DNA of 64,000 nucleotides from Nocardiopsis kunsanensis DSM 44524 (lineage in GTDB: Bacteria > Actinomycetota > Actinomycetes > Streptosporangiales > Streptosporangiaceae): NCBI RefSeq assembly GCF_000340965.1, contig NZ_ANAY01000034.1, positions 1 through 64,000 of the forward strand, read 5' to 3'. The first letter of the stretch is position 1; each line of letters opens with the position of its first letter. A program made the position numbers and the translations under genes. The notes below the pieces were generated by a model. The model saw nothing but the letters and a program-made list of their open reading frames with translations. It ran no database searches and was not told the origin of the DNA. This document shows, piece after piece, positions 3,630-19,268 of the stretch.

Positions 3630-4862
3630 GTGAGCACGCACCACTGTTCCGCATGGGAACTGTTCCGTTCGACCACGTTCCTGCGCGTCTTCACACGCGT
3701 GGTGGGCTGCGGCCCGTGTTCGGGCGACGGAACCGCACAGAGCTGCCCGGGCCACTCCGAGCAGTTCTACAACTACGTCAACCTGTGTGCCGAGCACTGC
3801 CCGTGCGCGGAACACCGGGGCGACGCCGAGAGTGTGATCGCGGTGCGCATGCGGCGCGCCGCGCCGGTCCGTGCCCCGGACACCGGACCCGGGTGCGGCC
3901 CCCTCCTCGTGCGCGGGCGCGAGCATGTCGACCGCAGCGCCGCGCACCGGTTGCGCGACGCCCTGGACGACGTGCGCCGCGACCGCTCCTACAAAAACCT
4001 GCGGCGCGTCTACCCCCAGTACACCGTCGGCGGCTCGGTACGGTGCGCGTTCTCCGAACGTCCCCGGCGCTGGGCCCAGCGCCGCGACGTGTCCCGGGTG
4101 GCCTCCGACCTGGTCGACCAGGAAGCGCTGGCGATGCTCGTGCTCACCGCCGGCTGGGGCAACCCGGCCGCCGACCTGCCCGAGGACATCGCCCCCGGCG
4201 AGCACGTCTCCTTCACCGAGGACGGCAGCGCGGTGCCCGTGTCCGACCTGCACGGACGTTCGGTGAGTGAGGAGCGCGACCCGCCGCTGGTCTCCACCGC
4301 CACCGGCGACTACCTGCTGCGCAAGCTCACCGAGCTGGCGGCCGGACGCGACGCCGACCTCGGCCGCACCCCCGACCAGCGCCGCCGGTTGGTGTTGCGC
4401 CGGTTACTGCCCGACCTGAGCGGTGAGGACCTGGCCCGGCGCCTGACCGGGGTGCTCGGGCGTATGGCCGTGGACATGCCCTCCCACTTCCGTCTGGTGC
4501 AGCAGGCCCGCGGGAGGGCCCGCAGCGCCCCTTACACACCGGTGCCCGACCCCGACGAGGTACCGGAGGGGTTCGCCGAGCGGCCCAGACGCCAGGTCCT
4601 GAGCGAGCAGGAGCTCACCTGGCTGTCCGGGGCCGCCTCACGGCTGGCGGAGGAGGCCCAGAGCGACCGCGCCGCTTTCGACTCCGACCCCCGAGGCGCA
4701 CTGGACACCCTGGTCTGCGCACTGTTGGCCGAGGACGGCACGGCGCCCGTCCGGTGGCGTCCGGCCCTGGAGGACCCCGACGTGCGCGCCGACCTGCTGG
4801 AGGCCCTCGCCGAGTCCGCCGAGACCCTCGAGACCGCCGGGGACCGAGACTCCGCACCCTGA
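3630..4862 (+). CDS. Unidentified protein with cysteine-rich N-terminus, beside CRISPR-type locus
   Basis: A 410-residue soluble protein I do not recognise. The first ~65 residues are rich in cysteine and histidine (CGPCSGDGTAQSC, CAEHCPCAEH), spaced like metal or disulfide sites. The rest is charged and largely helical in composition with an acidic C-terminus. No membrane segment, CARF, HEPN or nuclease motif is visible. GTG 3630 follows a GGGGAGAAG ribosome site. It is transcribed towards the cas genes from its own promoter and separated from them by a 12-bp-stem terminator. Its position makes it a candidate accessory gene of the island; nothing in the sequence gives a function. Confidence 0.75.
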   Translation: MSTHHCSAWELFRSTTFLRVFTRVVGCGPCSGDGTAQSCPGHSEQFYNYVNLCAEHCPCAEHRGDAESVIAVRMRRAAPVRAPDTGPGCGPLLVRGREHVDRSAAHRLRDALDDVRRDRSYKNLRRVYPQYTVGGSVRCAFSERPRRWAQRRDVSRVASDLVDQEALAMLVLTAGWGNPAADLPEDIAPGEHVSFTEDGSAVPVSDLHGRSVSEERDPPLVSTATGDYLLRKLTELAAGRDADLGRTPDQRRRLVLRRLLPDLSGEDLARRLTGVLGRMAVDMPSHFRLVQQARGRARSAPYTPVPDPDEVPEGFAERPRRQVLSEQELTWLSGAASRLAEEAQSDRAAFDSDPRGALDTLVCALLAEDGTAPVRWRPALEDPDVRADLLEALAESAETLETAGDRDSAP

Positions 4863-5046: not shown

Positions 5047-7341
5047 TCAGGCAGGCGGCCCCCGACCGGAGAACCGGCGGACCAGCGGGGGCAGGACGGG
5101 ATACTCGGCGAACTCGCGCAGACTCATCACGGCCGTCTCCTCCAGAGGCAGGCGGTGGCGCCAGCGTGCGGCCAGGCACAGGTCCCGGGCCTGGGCGACC
5201 TGTCTCCAACGGGCAGGGTCGGCGCCGTCGGGCAGTCGGCGGGCGGTCAGGGCGGTGCCGAAGGCGTCCAGGAAACGGCGGACCTCGCCCGCCCCGGCCC
5301 GGCGCACCCCGGCCGCAGGGTCCAGGGACAGGGCCCGCGCACCCCGGTTCACCAGGTACAGCTCCGGTCTCAGGTGCACACTCCCGAGGCCGAGGGCCTT
5401 TCCCATCCCGAGCTTGTGGGCGTACTCGGGGTCGCGTGCGTCTCCACCGTCGACGGGGTTGTCCAGGAGCAGGGCCCGTAGCAGCGCTCCGAGTTCGGCG
5501 CTGGTCAGGTTGGTGAAGGTGAGGCGGGAGCGAAAAGTGAGCCCGCCCCGCAGAGGAACGACGTCGCGCTGGGTCTCACGGGGCGGGCCGTCACCGTGAG
5601 TGGGCAGACCGAACCCCAGGGCCTCCTGCGCAGCGCGGTCGTAGCGCTCCGGGGTCCCCACCCCCTCCGGATGGCGGTGCAGGTAGACCTTGTACCCGCC
5701 CAGGCGCACCCGCCCCTCGTGCGACCAGGTCACCAGGTCGGGCCGCTCGCCCACCTCGGTCTCGGGCCCCTGCAGCAGATAGTTGGCGAAACAGCCGCGC
5801 TGGGGGGAGAGCAACCGTACACGCAGGGGTCCGTCCGGCAGGTCCGCGTCGGTCCGGTCGCAGACGGCGTCACCGACCTGGACCCTGCCCCGGGTCGCGC
5901 CGCCGGGGCCGGCGAAGGTGTCGAGGTCGCCGAAGAGGGCCCGGGGAACGTCGACGGGGCGTCCGGCCCGTTCGTCGCGGTCGGGGTCCTCGTGTTGGGG
6001 GCCCAGGACCCTCGGTGGCACGGCACGCCGGATCGGGTTCTCCTCACTGACGGCGATGCGGTACCCGCCGGAACGGCCGAAGGAGACCACCGCACCGGAG
6101 AGGTCCTGGTCGAACCAGACCGGCTCCACCCCGGACCGGGGCAGTCCCCCTCCCCCGGCCCCGGCCACGGGCGGGCGTTCGGGGTCGCCGGGGCCGGCAC
6201 CGAGGTGGTCGGGGAAGGCCAGGCGCTGGTAATCGGTGATCTGCTCGGCGGACTCGAAGAGTTCCACCAAGGCTTCGGGGACGGGCAGGCGTCCGGTGCG
6301 CATGTCGTGCGGGCGGGGGAAGAGGAAGGCGTTGCGGCGCTCGGCGGAAGCCTGTCCGGTGAGCACGATCAGGGCCGGGACGACGGTTCCCCCGTCGGTG
6401 CCGTGGGCGTGCAGGTGGTCCAGGGCCTGGGCCCGAGTGGGGGCGACCGCGACCACCCCCTTGGTCCCGGGGACGTGGAGTGCGTGTACCCACCGGTGCT
6501 GGAGCATCCCGTGCTGCGGGTGGAGCGTGGGTACGTAGCCGGTACCGCGCGGCGGGTCGGGGAAGGTGTCGACACCGAAGTCCCAGGTACGCAGGCTACG
6601 GCGCAGGGTCTCGAAGGGGAGCTTGAGGGCCTGGCCGGGTTCGGGGGTCCAGGGGGTGGGCGCCACCTCCACCACGTACCAGCGGTCCTCGGGACCGTCG
6701 TGCTGGAGGAACCCCTGGCGGGTGCGTAGCCCGGCGCGGCGTTTGCGGTAGTGGGCGTGGCGGTGGGCCATGACCTGGCGGGTGCGGGCGGGCAGGGTGC
6801 TGTCACCGCTGTCGGGGTCGATACGTACGGGAGCGCGGAAGTAGAGCATGGGGGTGTTGACCGGTCCGGTCTCGCCTCCGGTGAGGATGCGGACGGTGTT
6901 GCGGATCAGGCCCCGCAGGCTGGAGCCGGGCAGGACCGGCAGTCCCGGGCCGTCCGGATCGGGCAGGCGCAGGGAACGGCCGACGCGTCCACGGTCGGGG
7001 CTCCGGCCGACATAGGTGGGGGTGAGAGTGGTGGCGGTCAGTTCGATCCAGCCCGTGTGGGTGCCGGGAACGGTGCGGTCGTGCGAGCGCAGCAGATCGG
7101 CGGTCCGGTGTCCTGGGTGCAGGTCGGCAGCGGGCAGGGGTGTGTCGGCGAGCGGGACGGAACCGTAGGGGGCGGTGGCGGTGTGGCGGACCCGGGTGCC
7201 GGACGTGACGGGGCCGGGTCCGGTGGGGCCCTCTTCGGTACCGTCCTGGTCCTCGCCGGGGCCCTGATCTCCCCCGCCGTGTCCGCAGGTTCCCTCCCCG
7301 CGCCCGGTGGAGCGGGCGGCCAGGTCACGGGGGTCGGGCAT
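5047..7341 (-). CDS. Type III CRISPR RAMP protein, TIGR03986-like
   Basis: A 764-residue RAMP (Cas7-like) protein, last gene of the cas operon. After a disordered Gly/Asp-rich head (about residues 1-60) comes a RAMP segment with the phosphate-binding type motif PGSSLRGLIRNTV near residue 140. A second conserved block lies near the C-terminus (LTFTNLTSAELGALLRAL ... HKLGMGKALGLGSV). Large size, the SSLRG motif and the K-G-KALG-G loop fit TIGR03986, known from type III effector complexes alongside Csx10 and Csx19. The expected role is part of the crRNA-binding backbone. ATG 7339-7341 overlaps the csx19 stop (TGATG) and has GGAGG 4 bases upstream; a GTG one codon earlier is possible. Confidence 0.8.
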   Translation of the reverse strand: MPDPRDLAARSTGRGEGTCGHGGGDQGPGEDQDGTEEGPTGPGPVTSGTRVRHTATAPYGSVPLADTPLPAADLHPGHRTADLLRSHDRTVPGTHTGWIELTATTLTPTYVGRSPDRGRVGRSLRLPDPDGPGLPVLPGSSLRGLIRNTVRILTGGETGPVNTPMLYFRAPVRIDPDSGDSTLPARTRQVMAHRHAHYRKRRAGLRTRQGFLQHDGPEDRWYVVEVAPTPWTPEPGQALKLPFETLRRSLRTWDFGVDTFPDPPRGTGYVPTLHPQHGMLQHRWVHALHVPGTKGVVAVAPTRAQALDHLHAHGTDGGTVVPALIVLTGQASAERRNAFLFPRPHDMRTGRLPVPEALVELFESAEQITDYQRLAFPDHLGAGPGDPERPPVAGAGGGGLPRSGVEPVWFDQDLSGAVVSFGRSGGYRIAVSEENPIRRAVPPRVLGPQHEDPDRDERAGRPVDVPRALFGDLDTFAGPGGATRGRVQVGDAVCDRTDADLPDGPLRVRLLSPQRGCFANYLLQGPETEVGERPDLVTWSHEGRVRLGGYKVYLHRHPEGVGTPERYDRAAQEALGFGLPTHGDGPPRETQRDVVPLRGGLTFRSRLTFTNLTSAELGALLRALLLDNPVDGGDARDPEYAHKLGMGKALGLGSVHLRPELYLVNRGARALSLDPAAGVRRAGAGEVRRFLDAFGTALTARRLPDGADPARWRQVAQARDLCLAARWRHRLPLEETAVMSLREFAEYPVLPPLVRRFSGRGPPA

Positions 7342-8120
7342 CACACCTCCTCGACCGGGTCACCGGTGCCGGGATCGGGCCCGGGGCCGGCGGGGTCGGG
7401 GCCGGTGTGCAGCCCGGTGAGGCGGTGGAAGGCCACACCGACCGCGCCGGTCGCGGGATCCTCGGCCCAGTACTCGCGCACGGTGAGCCACATCCCGACG
7501 GTGCGGGCGAGGGTGCTCCCGTCATCGAGGGGGCGGGTAGTGCCGCTGGTGTCTACGGGATCGAGGGGAAGGACCGCACGGGTTCCGTCGGGTTCGGAGG
7601 CGAGGGTCAGCGGGGGCGGTTCCTGCGGACCGTGGTCGGGGTCCCGGTGGCCGGGCGCGGAACGGACCGGCCGACGGTACTCGGGTCCGTTGTGCCCACG
7701 CAGCAGGAACGCGCGGTCGCGGGGGCGCAGCGGGGCGGGCAGCGGCTCGGGCGCGTCGGCGCTGAGCCAGCCGTGTTCGCCGCCCTCCCCCAGCCGTATC
7801 TGGGCGTGCGGTGTGAACACGAGCACCTCCAGGATCCGCCACCGGTCCCCCGGCCCGGGGACGGACGCGGAGGACGCGGCGGCCCCGAGGTCGGAAAGGC
7901 GCCACCGTTCGTGCGGGCAAGCACCGGTGACACGCCCGTCCCCGAGTTCGGCCAGGAGCCACTGGGGCTCGCCGGCACGAGCGGGGAAGCCGGACGGTGG
8001 GTGGTCGAGCAGGCCGCAGCGCACACCCCGGGTGAAGACCTGCTCCAGCACGGCCTCGATCTGGCCGGGGGTGAGTTCGTGCCGCAGGAGCCCTGCGGGC
8101 GGGGGCGGGTCGAGGTTCAC
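7341..8120 (-). CDS. csx19: Csx19-like (TIGR03984) CRISPR-associated protein
   Basis: A 259-residue protein between two RAMP genes. Its position directly before a TIGR03986-type RAMP, its length, and the segment DRWRILEVLVFTPHAQIRLGEGGEHGWL with DRAFLLRGH match Csx19/TIGR03984, a small non-RAMP component characteristic of type III-D loci. Its biochemical role in the complex is not settled. GTG 8118-8120 overlaps the preceding stop by four bases (GTGA), and its own stop overlaps the next start, so translation is coupled at both ends. Assignment rests on context plus partial sequence resemblance. Confidence 0.65.
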   Translation of the reverse strand: MNLDPPPPAGLLRHELTPGQIEAVLEQVFTRGVRCGLLDHPPSGFPARAGEPQWLLAELGDGRVTGACPHERWRLSDLGAAASSASVPGPGDRWRILEVLVFTPHAQIRLGEGGEHGWLSADAPEPLPAPLRPRDRAFLLRGHNGPEYRRPVRSAPGHRDPDHGPQEPPPLTLASEPDGTRAVLPLDPVDTSGTTRPLDDGSTLARTVGMWLTVREYWAEDPATGAVGVAFHRLTGLHTGPDPAGPGPDPGTGDPVEEV

Positions 8121-9838
8121 CGGTCCCCCTCCGCCACGGGTCGGGGACGCAGACGTGCGTGCCAGCGCGAGACCCAGGCGCGTGCGGTACGGGCCTCGGC
8201 GCTGTCGGGCTCACGCACGGCGGTGAGGAGGTCCACGGTCCGGGCGGGTGCGTCGTGGCCGGGGTGCAGGGTGAGCGTTGCGGCGGTGGCGGTGACACGT
8301 CCGTGCCCGTTCCCGGCACCCGAACCGAGGGTGTGGAGGGGCACGGTCGCCAGTTCACGGACCAGGAGAGCGATCAGGCCCCGGACGGCGTCGTCGGGTT
8401 CGTGCACGTCCAGGACGGCCTCGGCGCTGCCCCCGCAGTACATGTCATCGGTGGACAGGTGCCCGTCGACGGCGTCGCCGAAGAGGGAGTCCACGGTCAG
8501 GCGTGTGGTCGTCAAGGGCGCACCACCTGTCAGGACGGGGGTGCGGCGCAACCGGACGCGGGAGGGCCGGGGCAGGGCGGTGGCCGGGTCGGTGTCGCCG
8601 CCCCACCAGTGGGCGTGCCAGTGCCGCCACAGGTCCTCGTGCCCGCCCAGGGCCTCACAGGCGTCGCGGGCCAGCCGGGCAGCGATGCGTTTGAGGAGGG
8701 CATGGAGCGCGGTGTCGCCCAGGACCGGCTCGTTCCCGGGGCTCTGCAACGCGGGCCCGGAGGCCGCGGACGGGTTCTGCGCCTCCTCGGGCCTGCTGAC
8801 GGAGGGCCCCGGCCCCCGGTACGCCGGGGTGGGTCCCTCGGCGGGCGGGGCGGGACGGGCGGGAGGGCGGTGCCGGTGGACACGGTCGACGGCCCCCGCC
8901 CGGTCGGGCGGGGGGTGGTCCGTGATCATGAGCAGCCCGGGACGGACCCGTCCGGGGACCGACGGCCGGTCCGGTTCGCCCACGGCCAGGGTCAGGCGGA
9001 GCTCGTCGCGGCGGCGCCGGTCCGTGGTCCCGGCCGGCAGGTCGCAGGCGAGGTCGGGCAGGCCCTCGGTGTGCAGGACCCGGGCCAACGCCTCGGTCAG
9101 GGTGGCCGGGCCGTCGGCGAGGGTGTGTTCACCGTCCTGGTGCCGTCGGTCCCAGGTACGGGCGTGGTGGGCGAACCATCCCTCGGCGGTGGTGAGGTCG
9201 TGGCGCCGGGCTCCCCAGGCGGTGGCGGCGACGGCTCCGTGCCCGCGCCCGGTGCGTGCGCCCACGTGGAGCCCGGGTCCCGGGCCGGGGGCCGGGGCGC
9301 GGGCCTGCTCGGGCGCGGGCGCGTGCAACCCGGCGACGGCCTCGACGAGCAGACCGAGCAGCCGCCCCTCGTCCCCGGGTTCGTGCACGTGCAAGCGCAG
9401 ATGGGCGGTGAGGACGGTCCCGGCGGGTAGGATCTCCCGGCTCCACAGGTGTCCGGGCAACGCCGTACCGGAGGCAGGGTCCACCCGGTTCCCGGATCTG
9501 GGGACCACGGGGGCGGGAACCCGGCCCTGGGCATCGTCCAGGTCCAGCGCGCCGGGGTACCCGTTCCCGTCGGGGTCCTCGGCCGCGGCGGTACCGAACA
9601 GGGTGGCGGCGGCCTCGGCGTCACCGGTACGGGCAGTGAGGTCGTGGCGCAGCAGCCCGGCCAGGGTGGTGGCACGCAGGCGGGGCAGACCGGTGTCCGG
9701 GGCACGGTCCACGGGCAGGTCGGTCCCGGTCTCGTCGGCGCGGCGGTGGGCCGGGTCGGCGGACCCGACATGGGTGTCGGACCACAGCACCAGGCGGACG
9801 GTGATCTCCCAGAGCACGGACGTCGGGGTCTTGCTCAC
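8117..9838 (-). CDS. Double-RAMP (Cas7-Cas7-like) type III protein
   Basis: A 573-residue protein that reads as two RAMP halves. The N-terminal half has LRATTLAGLLRHDLTART and a glycine-rich loop GARTGRGHGAVAATAWG near residue 195. A Pro/Gly-rich linker follows. The C-terminal half has LSTDDMYCGGSAEAVLDVH and a second loop LGSGAGNGHGRVTATAATL near residue 520. Paired glycine-rich loops each following a Cas7-like core indicate a fusion, or two Cas7 subunits on one chain, as known for some type III-D/E proteins. It would supply backbone subunits that cradle the crRNA and cut target RNA between them. Start: GTG 9836-9838, overlapping the csx10 stop (GTGA); longer in-frame starts run into csx10. 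Confidence 0.75.
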   Translation of the reverse strand: MSKTPTSVLWEITVRLVLWSDTHVGSADPAHRRADETGTDLPVDRAPDTGLPRLRATTLAGLLRHDLTARTGDAEAAATLFGTAAAEDPDGNGYPGALDLDDAQGRVPAPVVPRSGNRVDPASGTALPGHLWSREILPAGTVLTAHLRLHVHEPGDEGRLLGLLVEAVAGLHAPAPEQARAPAPGPGPGLHVGARTGRGHGAVAATAWGARRHDLTTAEGWFAHHARTWDRRHQDGEHTLADGPATLTEALARVLHTEGLPDLACDLPAGTTDRRRRDELRLTLAVGEPDRPSVPGRVRPGLLMITDHPPPDRAGAVDRVHRHRPPARPAPPAEGPTPAYRGPGPSVSRPEEAQNPSAASGPALQSPGNEPVLGDTALHALLKRIAARLARDACEALGGHEDLWRHWHAHWWGGDTDPATALPRPSRVRLRRTPVLTGGAPLTTTRLTVDSLFGDAVDGHLSTDDMYCGGSAEAVLDVHEPDDAVRGLIALLVRELATVPLHTLGSGAGNGHGRVTATAATLTLHPGHDAPARTVDLLTAVREPDSAEARTARAWVSRWHARLRPRPVAEGDR

Positions 9839-11730
9839 GAGTGCACACCCCCGCGGGCCCGCAGCAGGCGGGCGGCCTCCGTCATCCAGGCCACCAGGTG
9901 GGCACGGGCCAGGCGGGCAGCAGCACGGCGTTCCCATTCGCGGGCGCGCGGGGACAGTTCACCGGGTGCGGGCGGACGCCCGTCGGCCAGGTCGAGGTCG
10001 ACGGCGGCCAGGGCCGCGGCGTAGTCGGGGTCGGCGCCGGATGCGGGGCGGTGGTCGGTCCACCAGGCGGCCACGGCGCCGGGGTCGCCGGGCAGGGTGA
10101 GCCATGCACGTGCGGTGACCGGAGCGGGGCGCTCGGCGCCGGTGGGGCGTGCGTGTTCCAGGGCACGCACGGCCTTGGCCGAGAGCACCCCGTCGCCCCC
10201 GGCCACGGCACGGGCCAGATCGGCCAGGCAACCGTGCGGGGTGCGGTCCGGGCGAGTGAGGACGGCGCGCAGACGGTCCAGGAGTCCGGGGGTCAGAGGA
10301 GGGAGCCGGTGTTCGCAGGCGCGGGCACGGGCCCGGGCGTGGGCGCGTACGACGGGTCGGGCGGCGTCCCACAGCAGGGCGTCCTGGAGTCGGCCCGGAG
10401 GCCCGCCCCAATACTCGGCCCCGGGAGGGTCCGTGCCGTCCTGCCCGGGCCGGCCTGGTGAAGGGTCGTGCCCGTCGGCACGGGGGAGGCGGGGGGCGGA
10501 CGCGGGGCCGCCACCCGCCCGCCCGGGGGCCGGGGATGCGGCGGGAACGGCCGTGTGGGCCCCGGACGGAGCCGAAGAGGTCCGGGCCGCCACGGGCTCT
10601 GCTCTCGGGGGCAGGGGTACGGGAGTCTCCGGTGGCGGCGGGAGCAGCGTGAACTGTCCGTACCCCTCCACGGCACGTTCTCCCACCTGGTGGGTCTCCA
10701 GCTCGCGGACCTGCTCGGTCGACAGGCCCGCGCGGGTGAACAGGCGCACAACGGCCCCGGGGGCGGCCGCCCAGCGTTGGGCCATGGGTCCGTGGTAACC
10801 GCGGTGGTAGGCGCCCACGAGCACCGGCTCCACGTGTGCGGTACCGACCTCGATCCCGGCCCCGGGCAGGACCCTCCCGCACAGGTCGGCGACCTCGGCG
10901 ACCAGGGAGCGGGGGGAGGCTCCCCCGTGCGCCCCCACGACCAGGGCCGGGGCGAGCAGGAGCAGGTCGAGGGTCCCCCCGGGCGGTACGGAACGTTCCG
11001 TCCACGGGAGACGGACACGGTCCGGGGAGAGAGGACGGTCGGGGTCGGCCGGTCCCACCCGTACGCCCCCGTGGGCGCGGGTTCCCCCCGAACCCAGGGT
11101 GAGGGAGCCGCCGGCCCGGTCCAGGGTGTCGAGGATGTCGTGGGCCAGGTTCTGCAGGGCCCGCGTGTGCGGCGCGCGCAGATGCCAGCGGGCCTCGAAG
11201 ACCTGGTCGGCGTCGAGAGCGGTGGTGTGGAAGGGGCCGCCCGGCGTGTGCCGGCCCGGTCGGGACAGGAACCGTTCGGTGGTGGTCCGGACACGGGCGC
11301 GCAGCACACGGTCCGGGGTGAGGGGCTCACGGACCGCCTTGTAGGGCACGGACGGGTCGGTGGGGCCGAAGACGTCCACCAGGGTGGTTCCGTCCTTTCC
11401 GGGCGTGTAGAGGTTGGCCGGCGCAGGACAGGCCACACGCACTGTTGCGGGGTCGGGGTGGGGCGTGCCGTCCTCGACACAGCCCGGCTCGAGGCGTGGA
11501 TGGGCGGTGGCGAAACACACCTGCCGGCCGCGGGCCACCCAGTCGTGCAGGGCCCCCTCCCGGCCCGCGTGTCGCAGCACGGCGGCGAGCATGCCGCGCT
11601 GGGCCCGCCCGGGCACGGTCAGGTCGGTGGCCACTTGCAAGGGGTCTCGCCGGGTGCGCACGGCCACTGTGTCGGTGAGCACGTAGCGGAGAGGCAGGTA
11701 GGCGCTCACCGGGAGGTCGGAGGATCTCAC
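9835..11730 (-). CDS. csx10: Csx10-like RAMP protein
   Basis: A 631-residue RAMP protein resembling Csx10, the Cas5-type subunit that defines subtype III-D. It opens with a RAMP strand and helix (YLPLRYVLTDTVAVRTRRD, then PGRAQRGMLAAVLRH). It carries one glycine loop at about residues 205-220 (LGSGGTRAHGGVRVG) and the Csx10-like HQVGERAVEGYGQFTLL near residue 390. A long Pro/Ala-rich linker then leads to a helical C-terminal domain of ~200 residues. Csx10 is expected to bind the crRNA 5' handle. The start is GTG 11728-11730, two bases after the upstream RAMP stop with GAAGAGG upstream; the frame extends much further but there only mirrors cas10 and RAMP sequence. Confidence 0.78.
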   Translation of the reverse strand: MRSSDLPVSAYLPLRYVLTDTVAVRTRRDPLQVATDLTVPGRAQRGMLAAVLRHAGREGALHDWVARGRQVCFATAHPRLEPGCVEDGTPHPDPATVRVACPAPANLYTPGKDGTTLVDVFGPTDPSVPYKAVREPLTPDRVLRARVRTTTERFLSRPGRHTPGGPFHTTALDADQVFEARWHLRAPHTRALQNLAHDILDTLDRAGGSLTLGSGGTRAHGGVRVGPADPDRPLSPDRVRLPWTERSVPPGGTLDLLLLAPALVVGAHGGASPRSLVAEVADLCGRVLPGAGIEVGTAHVEPVLVGAYHRGYHGPMAQRWAAAPGAVVRLFTRAGLSTEQVRELETHQVGERAVEGYGQFTLLPPPPETPVPLPPRAEPVAARTSSAPSGAHTAVPAASPAPGRAGGGPASAPRLPRADGHDPSPGRPGQDGTDPPGAEYWGGPPGRLQDALLWDAARPVVRAHARARARACEHRLPPLTPGLLDRLRAVLTRPDRTPHGCLADLARAVAGGDGVLSAKAVRALEHARPTGAERPAPVTARAWLTLPGDPGAVAAWWTDHRPASGADPDYAAALAAVDLDLADGRPPAPGELSPRAREWERRAAARLARAHLVAWMTEAARLLRARGGVHS

Positions 11731-11732
11731 GT

Positions 11733-12419
11733 CTACACCTCTTCCCCGTCGGGACCGGTTCCTCTCCCTGGGTCCGCCTCCTTCCCCGGTGGTGCGGCGA
11801 GGGCGAGGGTGAGGGCGTCGGGGTCGGTGGTGCCCGGGGCGGCCAGGCGGACCTCGACCCTGCCGCGTCCCCGGCGGGTGCGGGCGCCGATGCGGTCGGT
11901 GGCCAGGCAGGCACGGGCAAGGACGAGCCAGTGGTCCGGGGACGGGGTACGGGCCCAGGTCAGTGCGGCGGTCAGGGTCGTCCCCGGCAGGAGGGCGCGG
12001 TGGGTGCGCAGGTGCCCGGGCTCGGGGGCGCCGTCCGTGCCCACGGCGGTGCTCGTCTCCACGACGGTGCGGACCCGGGTCAGGGCACGGCGCAAGGTGC
12101 TGTGTTCCGGTTCGGCGCGTCCGGCGAGCGCACGTGCCACGACCGCTCGGGTCTGCTGGTCGGCGCCGGCGTGGCCGAGCCGGAGGATTCGGTCGGGGCC
12201 GTGGGAGCCCGGCCGTCCGAAGAGCTCGTCGGCGACCCCGGCCAGGTGCGGTGTGAGCACGAGTGCGGCCTCGGCCCCGGTCCGCAGGCATGCGGCGAGG
12301 CGGTGGCGGGGAAGGTGGGGCAGGCCGTGCTCGTCGGTGGCCGCGTCGGTCGCTCCGCCGGACCCGGTGAACAGGGCCGGGGAGGCCAGACGGACCAGCA
12401 CGCGGTCCGGTGCGCTCAC
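11733..12419 (-). CDS. Small Cas7-like RAMP protein (Csm3-type position)
   Basis: A 228-residue single-domain RAMP. It has the N-terminal substrate loop LPHLPRHRLAACLRTGAEAA and the C-terminal glycine/arginine loop RIGARTRRGRGRVEVRL, the usual Cas7 arrangement. Size and position directly after cas10 match the Csm3gr7-like backbone subunit of type III-D complexes. The usual catalytic aspartate of Csm3 cannot be assigned with confidence without an alignment. GTG 12417-12419 is preceded by GGGAAGG; the upstream in-frame stretch overlaps cas10 and is not protein-like. Confidence 0.75.
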   Translation of the reverse strand: MSAPDRVLVRLASPALFTGSGGATDAATDEHGLPHLPRHRLAACLRTGAEAALVLTPHLAGVADELFGRPGSHGPDRILRLGHAGADQQTRAVVARALAGRAEPEHSTLRRALTRVRTVVETSTAVGTDGAPEPGHLRTHRALLPGTTLTAALTWARTPSPDHWLVLARACLATDRIGARTRRGRGRVEVRLAAPGTTDPDALTLALAAPPGKEADPGRGTGPDGEEV

Positions 12420-12543
12420 CCGAGGCCTTCCCGGAGCGGGTGGTGGCGGCGTACACGTGCGGGGTTCCCCGTACGGGCCGGCCCGTGCGGGCGGTCGGGA
12501 CGGCTCGGCAGGAAGAGCCGCCGGGCACCGTGGGCGGACGATG

Positions 12544-14367
12544 TCACGGCATCGGCCCTCCCTCTGCCGGAAGGACTGGGCCACCGGCCCCGGTCCGCCC
12601 CTGTGGTTGGGGCCGGTGGGGTTCGAGCGCCGCGGCGAGACCGGGGTCCAGGTACAGGTCCATGACCTCCACGGCGTCCAGGAGCCCGCCGGGGGTCCAG
12701 CCCCGGGGCAGCTCGGCGGGACGCCCGGTCGCGTGCTCGCGGCGTAGGAGTTCGGAGGCCGGGTCGGCCCCTGCTTCCAGGAGGGGAAGGAGGGTGGAGT
12801 GCAGCCAGCTCCTCTCGCGCGGGGCACCGTCGGGCAGCAGTGACCCGGGGGCCCGAGCGTCGAGATGGGTGTCCAGGAACGTGCGCAGACCGTGCCCGGT
12901 CAGCGGCAGGGTAGCGCGTTCGTCGAGGCGGTGCAGGGCACGTTCGATGCCGTCGGCACCGGTGGTCCAGGCGACGACATGGTCGTCCTCCTCACCGTCG
13001 GGGCGCGCGGTCCGCCGTGCTTTCGCCCGGGAGCACAGTGCCTCGCACACGTCGTACCCGAGCGCCAGGGGCGCGCCCACGGACTGCACCGCCACGCCCA
13101 CACCCACCGTGGGCACACACGTGGTGTGGCCCGGCCGTGTACCGGGGGCGGTACGCCCCCCGGCCCCGTCCGCCGGCGGCACGGTGCGCCGGGGGCCGCG
13201 GCCATCGTGGTCGAGGGCGCGGTGGAGAGCCACGCGTGGGTCGGCCGGGTCGGCGATCCGCACGGGGTCGGCGTCCAACCAGTCCAGCGCGTACCGCACC
13301 AGAGGCAGGGCCAGGCGGGCATCACACACGATCGTGAGGTCGTCCCCGGCCACCACGATCGGCCGCACCGGGACACTCACCGTCCCCTCGGCGTCGCGGT
13401 GCAGGGTGACCGCTCCCCCGGGGCCCACACCGGGCACGACGGGGTGGGACCCGGGTTCGGTACGCACGGTCGCGGCCACCGCCCGTACCAGCGCGCGGGC
13501 CAACCCCTCGATCAGACCGGCGATCCGGCGGGAGAGCTCGCGCTGGGCGAGCGCGCCCGAACCGGGCACCCCGGGGTCGGCCGCACGCTCGCGGTACTCG
13601 CCCAACAGCGTCCCGAGCCCGTTGACGTCGATGTGGGCGACGGCGGCCCGGCTCACCTGCCCGTGTTCGCGTCCGAGGTGGTCGGTCTCCTTGGGCAGGG
13701 CCAGGTGCGGCCCGGGCAGCCAGGCGTGTTCCTGTTCCCGGTGCCAGCGCCGCCCCACCCCTCGGGCACGGGCCACGTCGGCCGAGACCCGCTCGGGTAC
13801 GCCGCCCTGCGAGCGCCGGGTGCGGCTGGTGTCCACGACCTCCGCGGGCGCACCGCTGACCGCGCACTCGGCGGTGATCCCGTATCCGTGAGCGGGCACG
13901 TGCAGTGCGGACATGTGCTGCCGGGCCTCACGCAACCGTCGGGGCAGCAGGGCCAGGGCCCCGTCCACACCGATCGTGCAGGAGGTCCCCTGCGCGGGGC
14001 CGTAAGGCACGTGCGCGACCACGGGCGTCAGCCCTCCGGCGCGTTCCCGGAGGTGGCGGGTGTAGCGGGAGGTGAACAGCCGCGCGGACCCGCGGTCCGC
14101 GAAGACCCCGGTGAAAGCGCCTCCGGCGTCACGCAGCACCAGGCAGTCGCCGGGCACCAGGGAGGCGATCCCGCGCTCTGGATCGCCGGTGTCGGTCAGC
14201 TCGGCGACCAGGGCAGCACGCCCCACGGCGTCCAGGATGCGGCGCCCCTGGTAGACGAAGGCCTGGATCCCGCGCAGGTCCACGCCCACGACCACCCCCG
14301 AGGCCGGTGGGGCCCAGGAGGGTCCGTCCGCACCTGTGGCAGGCCGTTGCGGCGAAAAGCAGGTCAC
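12544..14367 (-). CDS. cas10: Cas10-like large subunit (palm domain, no HD domain)
   Basis: A 607-residue Cas10/Cmr2-type protein. Near the N-terminus is the characteristic GIQAFVYQGRRILDAVGRAA (about residues 33-52), where type III large subunits have GIQ-F-F----L-G-S. The block AECAVSGAPAEVV follows. The palm domain shows AHIDVNGLG (about 246-254) and VVAGDDLTIVCD (about 339-350), the GGDD-equivalent with alanine for the first glycine. No N-terminal HD nuclease motif is present, so no DNA cleavage is expected; the paired aspartates needed for cyclic oligoadenylate synthesis remain. Start GTG 14365-14367 has GGAGGAG ten bases upstream; an in-frame extension to 14670 is low-complexity and unlikely. 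Confidence 0.85.
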   Translation of the reverse strand: MTCFSPQRPATGADGPSWAPPASGVVVGVDLRGIQAFVYQGRRILDAVGRAALVAELTDTGDPERGIASLVPGDCLVLRDAGGAFTGVFADRGSARLFTSRYTRHLRERAGGLTPVVAHVPYGPAQGTSCTIGVDGALALLPRRLREARQHMSALHVPAHGYGITAECAVSGAPAEVVDTSRTRRSQGGVPERVSADVARARGVGRRWHREQEHAWLPGPHLALPKETDHLGREHGQVSRAAVAHIDVNGLGTLLGEYRERAADPGVPGSGALAQRELSRRIAGLIEGLARALVRAVAATVRTEPGSHPVVPGVGPGGAVTLHRDAEGTVSVPVRPIVVAGDDLTIVCDARLALPLVRYALDWLDADPVRIADPADPRVALHRALDHDGRGPRRTVPPADGAGGRTAPGTRPGHTTCVPTVGVGVAVQSVGAPLALGYDVCEALCSRAKARRTARPDGEEDDHVVAWTTGADGIERALHRLDERATLPLTGHGLRTFLDTHLDARAPGSLLPDGAPRERSWLHSTLLPLLEAGADPASELLRREHATGRPAELPRGWTPGGLLDAVEVMDLYLDPGLAAALEPHRPQPQGRTGAGGPVLPAEGGPMP

Positions 14368-14907
14368 CGGAAGTGAGCTCCTCCTCGGCGGGGACAGGGC
14401 GGGAAGACGAGGGCCTGCGTCCGTGGCAGACCGTCCCGGTCCTCTCTCTCGGACAGAACGCCACACGACCGGTAACCGTAACCAATCGGCCTCCGCACGG
14501 ATCCCCGCGGGGGACGGGAAAGCAGCGCCGGACGGCGGTCCGGACAGCGGCCCCGCGGGCGCCGCTGTCCGAGAGAGCTGGGTGCACAGCCCCCGCCAGG
14601 AAGGCCCACGCATGTCCGCCTCGCCTCCCCCACGCATGACAGCGGCCCGCCCCCCGTCCCCCGTAGGCACGACCCCCCGCGAGCCGCCCCTGCACCCACC
14701 GGATCTGGCCCCGCACCTGCGCGGCCTGGCCAGGTCGCTGCGGTCCCGGTCCCGGCCCCGACCCGCCCCGACCCCGCGGAGCTGAACACACGCGTGGGCC
14801 GGCCGGCCCCGTACCTGTGCCCGGGAACCGACCGGCCGCGCCCCGGCCCGCGCTCGCCGTCCCCGAGCGGGACCGGTGGTCGTCGGGGCCTGCTCGCCCA
14901 GCGGCCC
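14368..14907. other. Long gap inside the cas operon (cas6-cas10)
   Basis: 540 bases separate the cas6 stop from the cas10 start, while the genes from the small RAMP (11733-12419) onward nearly touch. No repeat array, terminator or convincing minus-strand gene is seen. A plus-strand Pro/Arg-rich ORF (14612-14785) lies inside. The stretch around 14461-14490 is locally less GC-rich and could hold a promoter for cas10, but no clear -10/-35 pair was found. Confidence 0.4.
14612..14785 (+). CDS. Doubtful small Pro/Arg-rich ORF
   Basis: A 57-codon plus-strand frame (MSASPPPRMTAARPPSP...) with AGGAAGG seven bases before ATG. It is antisense to the cas transcript, has extreme Pro/Arg/Ser content and no recognisable family. 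The ribosome site is the only support; it may be chance. Confidence 0.15.
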   Translation: MSASPPPRMTAARPPSPVGTTPREPPLHPPDLAPHLRGLARSLRSRSRPRPAPTPRS

Positions 14908-15855
14908 CTAGTCGAAGAGCGCACCTCCGAACTCACCGGCCTCGGCCACAGCGGGTCGACGCGGTTCGTGCACACGGTGCGGGGTGCGGCGCGCCGTGCC
15001 CCGGCCCTGGCGTCCGGAACGCCGGGCTGCGGCCCGCGTATCCGGCTCCGGGGCGGTGACGGTGTCCACACGCACCGACCCGAACCCCTGCGCGGTGTAC
15101 TTTCCGACCCCGGCCAGTTCCACCAGTTCCAGCAGCGAGGCGAAGGCACGGACGTGCCGGGGATCGCCGCCGACGAGTTCGAGCCGCATACCGCCCTGCC
15201 AGGCGAGAACGGAACGGTTGTCCGCGTGGTGGTGTTCACCCAGCCGGATCTCCTCCCCGGGAAGGGGTGTGCGCCGCAGCTTCGCCATACCGCCCAACAC
15301 CAGGTCGAGCCAGGGCTCGGCCAGTTCGGGCGGGGCGAACCGGGCGACCGCGCCGACAGCACCGCTGCCGCCGACGATGCCGCCCCCGGAGCGGTGGACG
15401 GCGCCGAAGAGCCTGCGGGGGTCGGGCCACACGTGCGGGATACGGTCACCGGTGGCGTCGCGTGTGGTGGTGACCACGGGGGTGTGGCTGCGGAGCTCTG
15501 CCGTGCGCGGGGCGTGCGTGCGGTGCTCGCCGGAGAGCAGGGTGGCGTAGCCGGTGTCGAAGGTGCGGGTGACCGACAACGGTTCCATGAGGTGGTCACC
15601 GATGCGCTGGGCACGGCCCACGAGTTCGGAGGGGTCCAGCGGGGGCGGCACGTCGTCGAGCCAGGTGAGGGTCCAGTGGTGCAGCCGGTCCCCCAGAGGT
15701 ACGGGCCAGCCGTTCATCGCCCACTTCTTCGCACCGGTGTGTTCCCCGCAGGGCTGGGGCCACCAGGTGTTGAGCAGGCCGTGACAGTCCTCGGGCCGCA
15801 CGGGCCGGGCAGTCTCGGCCCGCTCACGCAGGATCAGGGTCCACCGTCGGGGCAC
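14908..15855 (-). CDS. cas6: Cas6-like CRISPR repeat endoribonuclease
   Basis: A 315-residue RAMP-fold protein at the head of the operon. The C-terminal half carries the Cas6 glycine-rich loop GVGKYTAQGFGSVRV, preceded by the typical RLELVGGDPRHVRAFASLLELVELAG helix. Cas6 processes CRISPR precursor RNA by cutting at each repeat, so its presence implies an array somewhere in the genome. The catalytic histidine is not obvious. The tail after the loop is Arg/Pro-rich. GTG 15853-15855 is preferred because GAGGAA lies nine bases upstream; two other GTG codons at 15861 and 15864 are in frame. Confidence 0.78.
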   Translation of the reverse strand: MPRRWTLILRERAETARPVRPEDCHGLLNTWWPQPCGEHTGAKKWAMNGWPVPLGDRLHHWTLTWLDDVPPPLDPSELVGRAQRIGDHLMEPLSVTRTFDTGYATLLSGEHRTHAPRTAELRSHTPVVTTTRDATGDRIPHVWPDPRRLFGAVHRSGGGIVGGSGAVGAVARFAPPELAEPWLDLVLGGMAKLRRTPLPGEEIRLGEHHHADNRSVLAWQGGMRLELVGGDPRHVRAFASLLELVELAGVGKYTAQGFGSVRVDTVTAPEPDTRAAARRSGRQGRGTARRTPHRVHEPRRPAVAEAGEFGGALFD

Positions 15856-16082: not shown

Positions 16083-17108
16083 ATGCCCCGCCTGAGCCAC
16101 ACCCTCGACATCACCCCCGTGGACCGCGCGGTTCTGGCCGACACCGTGGCCGCGCTCCACGAGATGGCCCGCGCCTGCCGCTTCGACGGGCGGGGCTGGC
16201 TCGCCCTGCCCGACCGCGCCACCGTCGCGGATCTGCGCGCCGAGGCCGATGATCTGGGTCTGATCGACGCCGATCAGGCCCGCCGCCTGCGCGAGGAGCA
16301 ACGCGAGGCGGCCGAGCGCAGCGCTCGGGCCGGGGCCGAGGGTGACACCGCGACCGCCGAGGAGGAGGCCGTGGCCGCCTCACGGTTGGCACTGCAGCTG
16401 AAGAACGGCCGCCACCTGGCCCCGCGTTCGCGCTATCTCCTTGCCGAGCTCTCCCCCGCCGGGGTGCCGCTGGAACCGGCCGAGGAGGACAAGGGCTGGA
16501 GCGGCACGGGGCTGACCGTGACCTCCTGGGACGAGCACGGAAAATCCGCGGTCTCCTACGACATGCCCGACACCTCCGGGGGAGAGCCCGCGGTGACTTG
16601 GGGCGACGTGGAGCACGACGGGGATCGCGAACACCTGCGCGCCACCACCGAGGTCCAGATCCCCGGCCGCGGCGCCTGGCTTCGGCGAGCCCGTGCCGAC
16701 CTGGCCTTCGACACCGGCGCCTGGTACGAGGCCGCCGCCGGCCGCGGCGACCCCGAGTCCCCGCCGGCCCTGGTGGTGGCCGAGCACCGGCTGGTGCGGG
16801 TCCGCGCGTGGGTGGCGCCCTCCCCCGGCGAGAACGGGTACTGGTCGGTGGAGGCTGTCCTCGACGTGCGTGGCCGGGGGTTGTTCCGTCCCATGGTCGC
16901 GTTGATGTTCTGGGCGATCCGGGCTTCGACCCGCCGTGAGGAACGAGGCAAGGTCGGCCGGGGCGAACGCACCCTCCGCGAGCAGCTGGCCGAGGACGCC
17001 GTCCGTTACGACCGCATCGCGCGCAACGCCCCGCGCATCCCGGGGTTCCTGCGCCGGGTGCGCGACGCCATGGCCGGCGCCCGCGACGCCCCGCCCGAAA
17101 CCCCGTGA
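16083..17108 (+). CDS. Unidentified protein divergent from cas6
   Basis: A 341-residue protein with GGAGG seven bases before ATG 16083. The N-terminal ~110 residues are charged, alanine-rich and predicted helical, including a possible coiled coil around LREEQREAAERSARAGAEG. The middle reads as beta-rich. A short hydrophobic stretch (GLFRPMVALMFWAIRAS, about residues 268-284) precedes a basic C-terminus; this helix could touch the membrane. I do not recognise a family. It is divergent from cas6 and convergent with actP (10 bases between stops), so it may be an island neighbour rather than part of the CRISPR system. Confidence 0.75.
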   Translation: MPRLSHTLDITPVDRAVLADTVAALHEMARACRFDGRGWLALPDRATVADLRAEADDLGLIDADQARRLREEQREAAERSARAGAEGDTATAEEEAVAASRLALQLKNGRHLAPRSRYLLAELSPAGVPLEPAEEDKGWSGTGLTVTSWDEHGKSAVSYDMPDTSGGEPAVTWGDVEHDGDREHLRATTEVQIPGRGAWLRRARADLAFDTGAWYEAAAGRGDPESPPALVVAEHRLVRVRAWVAPSPGENGYWSVEAVLDVRGRGLFRPMVALMFWAIRASTRREERGKVGRGERTLREQLAEDAVRYDRIARNAPRIPGFLRRVRDAMAGARDAPPETP

Positions 17109-17118
17109 GCCTCCCGTG

Positions 17119-18840
17119 TCAGGGTCCCTCCCGTTCGGCGGCCCAGCCGGTGAGTGAGCGCACGCGCAGTTCGGCGTAGCGGGCGGCGTTGCGTTCGTCC
17201 GAGAGCAGGCTGCCCACGATCGCGCACAGGAACCCGAGGGGCACCGCCACGAGCGCGGGGTTCTCCAGGGGCACGAACTGGATGTCGACGGAGGCGGGCA
17301 GCACCGACAGGTTCTCGCCGGTGACGGGGTCGGTCCTGCCCGACATCACCGGGGAGAACAGCATGAGCAGCATGGTCGCCGCGAGCCCGCCGTAGATGCC
17401 CCACTCCACGCCGCGGGTGTTGAACCGCCGCCAGAACAGGGTCAGGACGATGACGGGCAGGTTGGCGGCCGCGGCCATGGAGAACGCCAGTCCGACGAGA
17501 GCGGCGACGTTCTGTTCCTGGACCTGGATCGCCAGCACGATGGCCAGCCCGCCGATGACACACGCCGAGAGGCGGGCCACCACGACCTCCTGCGACTCCC
17601 GCGGGCGTCCCCACATGAGCACGTGTCCGAACAGATCGTGGGCGATGGAGGAGGACGAAGCCAGGGTCAGGCCGGCGACAACGGCGAGGATCGTGGCCAG
17701 GGCGATGGCGCAGACCAGGGCGAGCAGCACGGCGGCGCCGGCCGGTCCCGCGGTGAGCCGGCCCAGTTCCTCGGCGAGCAGGGGCACGGCTGTGTTCCCG
17801 GAGGGGTCCAGGGCCGCGATGCGTTCGGAACCGACCAGGGCGGCCGCGCCGAAACCGAGCGCGAGCGTCATGAGGTAGAAGGTGCCGACCATGAACACCG
17901 CGCGATTGGCCGAGGACCGCGCCGCGCGACCGTCGGGCACCGTGTAGAAGCGGATGAGGATGTGCGGCAGAGCGACGGTCCCCAGTACCAGTGCCAGGCC
18001 GAGACTGATCATGTCGAGCTTGTTGTACAGGGTCGCGGCGGCGTCGCCGGGAACTTCGCGTCCGAGCCCGAGTCCGGGTTCGAGGAAGGCCGTTCCGTGT
18101 CCGCTCGCCTCGGCGGCCCCGCCGAGCAGGGCGCGGGGGTCGAAGGAGAAGACGGCCAGCACCAGGACGGTGAGCAGCCCGGTCACGCCCAACAGTGCGA
18201 CGGCCTTGATGATCTGCAGCCAGGTGGCGGCCTTCATCCCGCCGTACATGACGTAGACGATCATGAGCACGCCCACGAGCACGATGGCTCCGGTGCGGGC
18301 CTGGGAATCGGTGAGCCCCAGGAAGGGCCCGTCGTGCAGACCGAGCAGGACCGAGAAGAGGGCTCCGGCACCGACCATCTGCGCGACGAGGTAGAACACG
18401 CAGACGGTGACGGTGGAGACGGTGCAGGCCAGGCGTACGCGCATGCGGCGCATCCGGAAGGCGGGCAGGTCGGCCATGGTGAAGCGGCCGGTGTTGCGCA
18501 TGAGTTGGGCCATGGGCAGCACGAGCAGCCAGGCCACGAGGAATCCGATGGAGTACAGGAACCCGTCGTAGCCCTGCAGGGCGATCATCCCGGCGATGCC
18601 GAGGAAGGAGGCGGCCGACAGGTAGTCCCCGGTCAGGGCGAGGCCGTTCTGGGTGCCGGAGAAACCGCGGCCGCCGGCGTAGAAGTCGACGGCGTCTCGG
18701 GTGGTGCGGCGGGCCCGGACCGTGATGGCCAGGGTGAACAGGACGAAGAGGGCGCACAGGCCGACGGTCCACACGTGCGCGGCGCCCAGTTGTCCTGCCA
18801 GGACTCCATCGGCGAGCTGTCGGGCGGGCGCGGCGGTCAC
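17119..18840 (-). CDS. actP: ActP-like cation/acetate symporter (SSS family)
   Basis: A 573-residue sodium:solute symporter with about 13 hydrophobic segments. FYAGGRGFSGTQNGLALTGDYLSAASFLGIAGMIAL is the classic early SSS block, and it matches the monocarboxylate (acetate) subgroup. GTG 18838-18840 overlaps the DUF485 stop (GTGA), reproducing the yjcH-actP arrangement known for acetate uptake. The frame extends upstream only as antisense-like sequence. Substrate (acetate versus pyruvate/propionate) is inferred. Confidence 0.88.
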   Translation of the reverse strand: MTAAPARQLADGVLAGQLGAAHVWTVGLCALFVLFTLAITVRARRTTRDAVDFYAGGRGFSGTQNGLALTGDYLSAASFLGIAGMIALQGYDGFLYSIGFLVAWLLVLPMAQLMRNTGRFTMADLPAFRMRRMRVRLACTVSTVTVCVFYLVAQMVGAGALFSVLLGLHDGPFLGLTDSQARTGAIVLVGVLMIVYVMYGGMKAATWLQIIKAVALLGVTGLLTVLVLAVFSFDPRALLGGAAEASGHGTAFLEPGLGLGREVPGDAAATLYNKLDMISLGLALVLGTVALPHILIRFYTVPDGRAARSSANRAVFMVGTFYLMTLALGFGAAALVGSERIAALDPSGNTAVPLLAEELGRLTAGPAGAAVLLALVCAIALATILAVVAGLTLASSSSIAHDLFGHVLMWGRPRESQEVVVARLSACVIGGLAIVLAIQVQEQNVAALVGLAFSMAAAANLPVIVLTLFWRRFNTRGVEWGIYGGLAATMLLMLFSPVMSGRTDPVTGENLSVLPASVDIQFVPLENPALVAVPLGFLCAIVGSLLSDERNAARYAELRVRSLTGWAAEREGP

Positions 18841-19268
18841 GGTCGCACCGCCCCGGTGCCGTGCTCGGCCTCCATGCGGGAGCGCACGCGGTCGGCGAGC
18901 GGATCGACCCACCGGCGGGCACAGCTGCCGAAGGCCCAGGTGAGGACGGACACGAGCAGGAACTGGCCCAGACCGGAGACCAACGCGACATTGACCGGTC
19001 CGGTGAGGGCGATACTCATGAAATCGCGGGCGTAGGCGCTCAACAACAGATGTGTGAGGTATCCGCTCAGGAACAGAGTGATGAGAATGCCGGACAACAG
19101 GGCATATCTTCGCCGCAACCGCACGAAATCGGGGTCGATCCACAGGCGTTCGCAGGCGTGGGCGATATCGACCTCCTCGGCCCTGCTCGCGCTGCGGCGC
19201 TGCGGCCCTGCGGGTCCGCCGCTGCGGCCGCGGGGGGCCGCCTCCATGTATTCGACGTGCTCGACCAT
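18837..19268 (-). CDS. DUF485 membrane protein, ActP partner
   Basis: A 143-residue protein with a basic cytoplasmic N-terminus and two membrane helices (YALLSGILITLFLSGYL and VALVSGLGQFLLVSVLTWAF). The block DPDFVRLRRRYALLSG is typical of DUF485 (YjcH-like), nearly always encoded directly before an ActP-type symporter. ATG 19266-19268 has GGGGGAGG four bases upstream. It is translationally coupled to actP. Its role, probably in assembly or regulation of the transporter, is not established. Confidence 0.88.
   Translation of the reverse strand: MVEHVEYMEAAPRGRSGGPAGPQRRSASRAEEVDIAHACERLWIDPDFVRLRRRYALLSGILITLFLSGYLTHLLLSAYARDFMSIALTGPVNVALVSGLGQFLLVSVLTWAFGSCARRWVDPLADRVRSRMEAEHGTGAVRP

Follow-up and report, generated by a model that had tools for sequence, protein, structure and literature searches.

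A type III-D-like CRISPR effector operon without its own array in nearly all Nocardiopsis genomes and its probable use of I-E-type arrays

CRISPR systems are usually patchy in their distribution, even within one species. What selection, then, keeps an adaptation-less type III effector operon in 39 of 40 genomes of the genus Nocardiopsis and in neighboring genera? The question arises from a window of 64,000 nucleotides, bases 1 to 64000 of contig C34 (73,004 bp) in a draft genome of 5.31 Mb and 97 contigs whose relatives belong to Nocardiopsis and Streptomonospora. The operon belongs to the standard Nocardiopsis gene set and, having no array of its own, probably takes its guide RNAs from arrays at other places in the genome. 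The explanation that we consider the probable one is a vertically inherited III-D (III-D1/III-Dv-like) effector that lacks its own array and adaptation genes, receives crRNAs in trans from I-E-type arrays, and signals to a Can1-like nuclease.

Gene content of the operon

A sequence-only reading of the window had described seven minus-strand genes at positions 5047 to 15855 as an effector module, and both the open reading frames and the profile matches bear this out. With gene boundaries set by starts that are conserved among relatives, the minus strand encodes cas6 (14908 to 15855; PADLOC Cas6, 551 bits; Pfam CRISPR_Cas6, 27.4 bits with a cutoff of 25; alignment), a cas10 without an HD domain (12544 to 14367; PADLOC Cas10h, 843 bits), the small RAMP cas7 (11733 to 12419; PADLOC Csm3 of III-A/III-D, 245 bits; alignment), a Csx10-like cas5 (9835 to 11730; PADLOC Cas5_IIIh, 777 bits), the double RAMP cas7-2x (8117 to 9838; PADLOC Cas7_IIIh, 205 bits; Pfam RAMPs, 44.4 bits), csx25 (7341 to 8120; PADLOC Csx25, 406 bits), whose product folds like the subunit presumed to be Csx19 in the III-D complex, and a TIGR03986-family RAMP in the cas7-insertion position (5047 to 7344). 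The close coupling noted for the last five genes also holds, with a 2-base gap between cas7 and cas5 and 4-base overlaps at the next three junctions.

Searches of each protein against the PADLOC and NCBIfam profiles gave matches consistent with a III-D-like effector. TIGR03986 (347.6 bits; cutoff, 161.35), a RAMP family of type III-D, is the sole NCBIfam profile to score over its cutoff among the seven proteins, whereas specific PADLOC models exist for most of them; Cas5, at 777 bits to Cas5_IIIh, scores 24.6 bits to Cas5_IIId and 13.1 bits to NCBIfam Csx10, under the cutoff of 177.3. Pfam gave no match in Cas5 or in Csx25, though PF27799 is listed for Csx25 relatives in the protein search. 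The fold of Csx25 matches chain B of the type III-Dv structure 8s9t, as expected of the Csx19 subunit of type III-D. Cas10 has a single solved match, the III-D Cas10 8s9t_C (E value, 5e-14), and the solved relatives of the TIGR03986-family RAMP are 9wxh_D and Cas7-11. The original label of a type III-D-like effector operon was right.

The Cas10 palm residues D247, N249, D342, and D343, which make up the DxN and AGDD motifs, are invariant in 16 of 16 sequences. The palm starts within about 40 residues of the N terminus, which leaves no room for an HD domain, and Pfam finds none, in agreement with the HD-less description. H25, H39, K43, and the glycine-rich loop of Cas6 are invariant in all 14 aligned sequences, as is D34 of the small RAMP Cas7 in all 15.

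The Can1-like nuclease and the cas6-cas10 gap

The statement that no CARF effector accompanies the operon is correct within the window and fails beyond it, since the same genome carries a Can1-like gene on contig C35, 1.2 to 1.3 kb from the contig end. Its product matches PADLOC CARF4_CARF_PDDEXK_CARF at 1123 bits and Can1 at 511 bits and has the CARF-PD-(D/E)xK-CARF architecture; the gene was found in all 40 Nocardiopsis genomes. In six stretches of relatives examined for it (L106, L107, L108, L109, L112, and L113) it lies beside the operon, after a gene for the PADLOC family Unk_06. The Unk_06 companion in the window (3630 to 4862, plus strand; 679 bits) encodes a protein with a cysteine- and histidine-rich start, and its predicted structure (pLDDT, 66.9) is too weak to interpret. 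This gene adjoins the operon in nine of nine loci (L002 to L010), the copy in L005 being a fragment at a contig end.

Homology to the relative L112 resumes at position 2901 of the window and stops at C35:68136. Because these two edges are only 49 bp apart on L112, we infer that C34 and C35 are adjacent, though not assembled as such, and that an insertion holding the contig break separates the Can1-like gene from Unk_06 and the operon in this genome. Positions 1 to 2900 of the window (no strand assigned), compared with L112, and C35:68137-69387 (L105) would be the inserted sequence, which is missing from this place in relatives; the frames within both parts have no Pfam or PADLOC match.

Loci outside the main genus encode a CARF-PDDEXK-CARF protein of about 750 residues upstream of cas10. 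Among ten such loci (L065 to L074), the gene lies between cas6 and cas10 in seven and, in L068, which has no cas6, between the Unk_06 gene and cas10, while L070 and L071 showed no CARF-PDDEXK-CARF gene, cas6, or Unk_06 within the 20 kb examined.

The 540-bp gap between cas6 and cas10 in the window is not empty. Divergent from cas10, an unannotated small gene (14612 to 14785, plus strand) has 57 codons here and encodes 51 to 90 residues in relatives, with a conserved helix around DLxPHLRxLAR. A frame with this motif was present in 38 of 65 loci scanned, a count that takes in duplicates, truncated loci, and other genera; all ten loci from outside the main genus (L065 to L074) lacked it. Its product is perhaps a local regulator. 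Between the small gene and cas10 lies an inverted pair of GTCCGAGAGAG (14444 to 14454 and 14567 to 14577, together spanning 14444 to 14577; no strand assigned). Both 11-bp copies, each with at most one mismatch and in the same order, recurred in 22 of the 29 scorable loci (31 were given, among which the window and L015 represent one genome), compared with 0 of 580 for shuffled motifs. A 13-bp form of the motif was found at 39 places, spread over 29 of the 40 genomes and adjoining cas10 in 30 cases, and its reversed control at 2. The conservation of this stretch suggests a local regulatory region. An array remnant in the gap was also considered and rejected: chance-like 12-base repeats were all that was found, in three of nine gap sequences, none of them in the window.

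Distribution, constraint, and guide source

Matches to cas10 were found in 39 of the 40 Nocardiopsis genomes and in 35 of the 36 of high completeness. The remaining genome, G017, is counted as a miss; a contig break as the cause was dropped, as the 7.2-kb contig bearing the locus motif holds no operon genes. Among 298 genomes of the family, 60 had a cas10 match at an E value of 1e-3: the 39 of Nocardiopsis, 12 clear cases from other genera (E < 1e-40), and 9 weak cases (E of 1e-6 or worse). In protein searches that scored up to 8000 candidates each, named matches came from Nocardiopsis, Streptomonospora, Thermobifida halotolerans, Marinitenerispora, Salinactinospora, Lipingzhangella, Marinactinospora, and one record labeled Glycomyces fuscus. 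Nearly all named matches of Cas10 and Csx25 are called "hypothetical protein" in the source records, so this core Nocardiopsis gene set is largely unlabeled there. A mobile-element origin is disfavored, because cas10 has no match in 72,556 plasmid and 50,697 phage records and the neighbors of the operon are kept in the relatives examined.

Relative to the nearest relative, G039, dN/dS values are 0.17 to 0.39 for the seven genes, 0.20 for Unk_06, and 0.30 for the Can1-like gene, against 2.0 to 4.4 for an antisense open frame in the four pairs measured, which marks the operon genes as more than chance frames. Another open frame, g17006 (17006 to 18991), behaves by dN/dS as an antisense frame and is thus treated as conserved sequence, unproven as a gene. 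In more distant pairs, operon dN/dS rises to 0.56, and a neighboring gene (16083 to 17108) has 0.32 to 0.54; between G024 and G031, neither of which has a Cas1 or Cse1 match, the values are 0.32 to 0.48 for the operon and 0.49 for the neighbor, and in the closest pair tested (L003 and L009) they are 0.24 to 0.67 and 0.63. Constraint on the operon genes is clear, yet no stronger than that on the neighboring gene, whose values the operon ranges resemble. The cas10 matches are without internal stops except for one TGA in a short match in G009, and some Can1-like matches, like some from outside the genus, read through TGA.

No array was found in the 64-kb window, as the sequence-only reading had stated, and the absence of cas1 from the window stands as well: for Cas1, Cse1, and the Can1-like protein alike, the single match in this genome lies on a contig other than the window's. 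An array with cas1 close to the window was looked for and not found nearby, and both are present elsewhere in the genome. Cas1 and Cse1 are both encoded on C21, and the stretches examined contain at least eight arrays of 29-nt I-E-type repeats with at least 105 repeats, seven arrays on C21 and one on C15. Two guide sources had been proposed, a distant array or non-CRISPR guides; the former is favored by the I-E-type arrays in the same genome and by linked arrays in two relatives. One of these, L072, has about 16 I-E-type repeats between cas10 and cas7 (12 counted by script and the rest by eye). The other, L068, has an 18-repeat I-E-type array beside Unk_06 and, in the same genome, a Cse1 gene about 9 kb beyond the operon. 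They are the only linked arrays of at least three repeats among 29 relatives' loci (L002 to L010 and L065 to L084), a survey in which L075 has no operon genes and some genomes occur twice.

A genome-wide search across the genus, which covered the I-E-type repeat family, detected pairs spaced as in an array in 39 of 40 genomes; the reversed control gave 0 every time. Cse1 and Cas1 are each present in 27 of the 40 genomes, in sets that differ, and 10 genomes have no match to either. At least three I-E-type pairs were found in 10 of the 13 genomes without Cse1 and in 8 of the 10 without both proteins. The median number of pairs is 86 in the genomes with Cse1 and 8 in those without, and G026, G031, and G024, with 0, 1, and 2 pairs, respectively, all have cas10.

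We infer that crRNAs would come from the I-E-type arrays and be matured by the operon's own Cas6 or by Cas6e of a resident I-E system. The three outside loci without cas6 (L068, L070, and L071) all belong to Cse1-carrying genomes, as though Cas6e might replace the missing protein, although these cases are few and 11 of the 12 outside genomes have Cse1. By analogy with type III-Dv, Cas10, Cas5, the three Cas7-type proteins, and Csx25 in the place of Csx19 would form one complex on the crRNA. Binding of target RNA would then lead to cleavage by Cas7 and to a nucleotide signal from the Cas10 palm, and this messenger would activate the linked Can1-like CARF-PD-(D/E)xK-CARF nuclease.

Sharing of I-E-type arrays is supported by the III-Dv-like operon order, the Csx25 fold, the invariant palm, the retention of Cas6, purifying selection, the Can1-like gene in 40 of 40 genomes, the excess of genomes with I-E-type pairs (39) over those with Cse1 (27), and the linked arrays of L072 and L068. 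Counting against it are the persistence of cas10 in the near-arrayless G026, G031, and G024, the linkage of arrays in 2 of 29 loci, the lack of a spacer target for the one array searched, and the dN/dS of 0.67, similar to the neighbor's 0.63, in the closest pair. Moreover, the arrays in genomes without Cse1 may be decaying I-E relics, because they are shorter.

That shortening, together with an I-E presence that seems to change fast between related genomes and the high dN/dS in one close pair, would fit an operon that is itself a relic or idle where I-E is absent, kept by inertia or after recent I-E loss. Such an operon would hardly be expected to keep invariant palm and Cas6 residues, cas10 in 39 of 40 genomes beside a universal Can1-like gene, and cas10 matches free of stops save the TGA noted above; we therefore find idleness improbable.

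The near-universality of the complex while adaptation genes come and go would also be explained by recruitment to a fixed cellular task with a non-CRISPR guide. The 39 of 40 genomes with cas10 fit this proposal, as do the intact operon genes of G024 and G031, which are under constraint (dN/dS, 0.32 to 0.48) in genomes that have two and one I-E-type pairs, respectively, and match neither Cas1 nor Cse1. However, that constraint is close to the neighboring gene's, some I-E-type pairs exist in 39 of 40 genomes, Cas6 is retained and conserved, and the only conserved noncoding feature found is the short, regulatory-looking inverted motif, all of which makes such recruitment rather unlikely. Similarly doubtful is a broader proposal in which the III-D complex is a fixed Nocardiopsis component, selected irrespective of adaptation genes or long arrays, that does part of its work without freshly acquired crRNAs (by a fixed guide or by surveillance that needs no memory of phages) and is regulated through the small gene and the locus-specific inverted motif.

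A further alternative assigns the I-E-type arrays to the I-E systems alone and has the complex serve other arrays in these genomes. Arrays with other repeats do adjoin other Cas1 genes in eight loci examined (within L045 to L053), G026 included, and the genome-wide search was confined to one repeat family. Nevertheless, the arrays linked to the operon (2 of 29 loci) are all I-E-type, and 10 of 40 genomes have no Cas1 or Cse1 match, so we judge this alternative unlikely. Sharing of I-E-type arrays remains our preferred reading, and it makes the genus a natural, testable case of a III-D complex living off I-E-type arrays, with variants that lack the I-E genes or nearly all such arrays.

The arrays themselves gave several further observations. 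No spacer was shared between species among the 235 extracted, identical ones reflecting overlapping stretches or duplication within an array. Arrays in the same chromosomal neighborhood of two sister species, the window's genome (G000:C21; L129 and L130) and G039 (C53; L131 and L132), have zero spacers in common; the arrays at C53 of G039, a genome without a Cas1 or Cse1 match, have only two to five repeats each. A 19-repeat array in G021 (L123:5569-6690), a genome without a Cas1 or Cse1 match, carries one spacer in ten copies, which looks like tandem duplication. The search of one array's spacers against phages returned 18 records, of which the two inspected are array-like phage regions and not spacer targets. 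The actinophage records MT451982.1 (L136:1503-1800) and JX006077.1 (L137:1502-1710) hold short I-E-type arrays of six and four cores, spaced by about 50 to 61 bp and apparently carrying no array annotation. The genus has at least two I-E-type repeat families, of the TGCTCCCC...ATGGTCCC and TGAGCCCC...ATGGACCG types; the Cas1 genes beside them align with different segments of the Cas1 profile, so the genus may contain two coexisting I-E lineages.

Relation to known systems

The PADLOC models Cas10h, Cas5_IIIh, Cas6_IIIh, Csx25, Unk_06, and CARF4_CARF_PDDEXK_CARF match these proteins at 406 to 1123 bits, and the families were thus already familiar to database curators by 2023. These labels suggested subtype III-H, which was ruled out by the intact palm motif and the missing HD domain. 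As defined in the 2025 classification (PMC12669027), III-H has an inactive Cas10 palm, an apparently active HD domain, and no adaptation genes. The Nocardiopsis Cas10 has invariant AGDD and DxN residues and no space before the palm for an HD nuclease domain, so that only the label and the absence of adaptation genes are in common.

The operon shares its gene order of cas10, cas7/cas5, cas7-2x, csx19-type, and TIGR03986/cas7-insertion-type genes with the type III-Dv effector of Synechocystis sp. PCC6803 (PDB 8s9t; PMC11026444), the sole solved relative found for its Cas10 and the source of the chain that matches the Csx25 fold. In the Synechocystis locus cas7, cas5, and cas11 are fused, and an array, cas6-2a, adaptation genes, csm6, and csx1 are all present. 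In Nocardiopsis, by contrast, cas7 and cas5 are separate, the accessory protein is Can1-like, and no array or adaptation genes are nearby.

In the literature searched, mostly outside subscription journals, we found no account of this system, of how widely it occurs, or of where its guides come from. Array sharing and the protein families are already known; neither the occurrence throughout the genus nor the connection to I-E-type arrays was found stated there. In two publications (PMC8482600 and PMC5576922), type III systems that lack adaptation genes and use the arrays of type I systems have mainly I-A, I-B, I-C, and I-F partners, with I-F and III-B array sharing described in the latter. Such sharers are not reported there as fixed in a genus, and the Nocardiopsis repeats are of I-E type; common to both is an effector presumed to use type I crRNAs.
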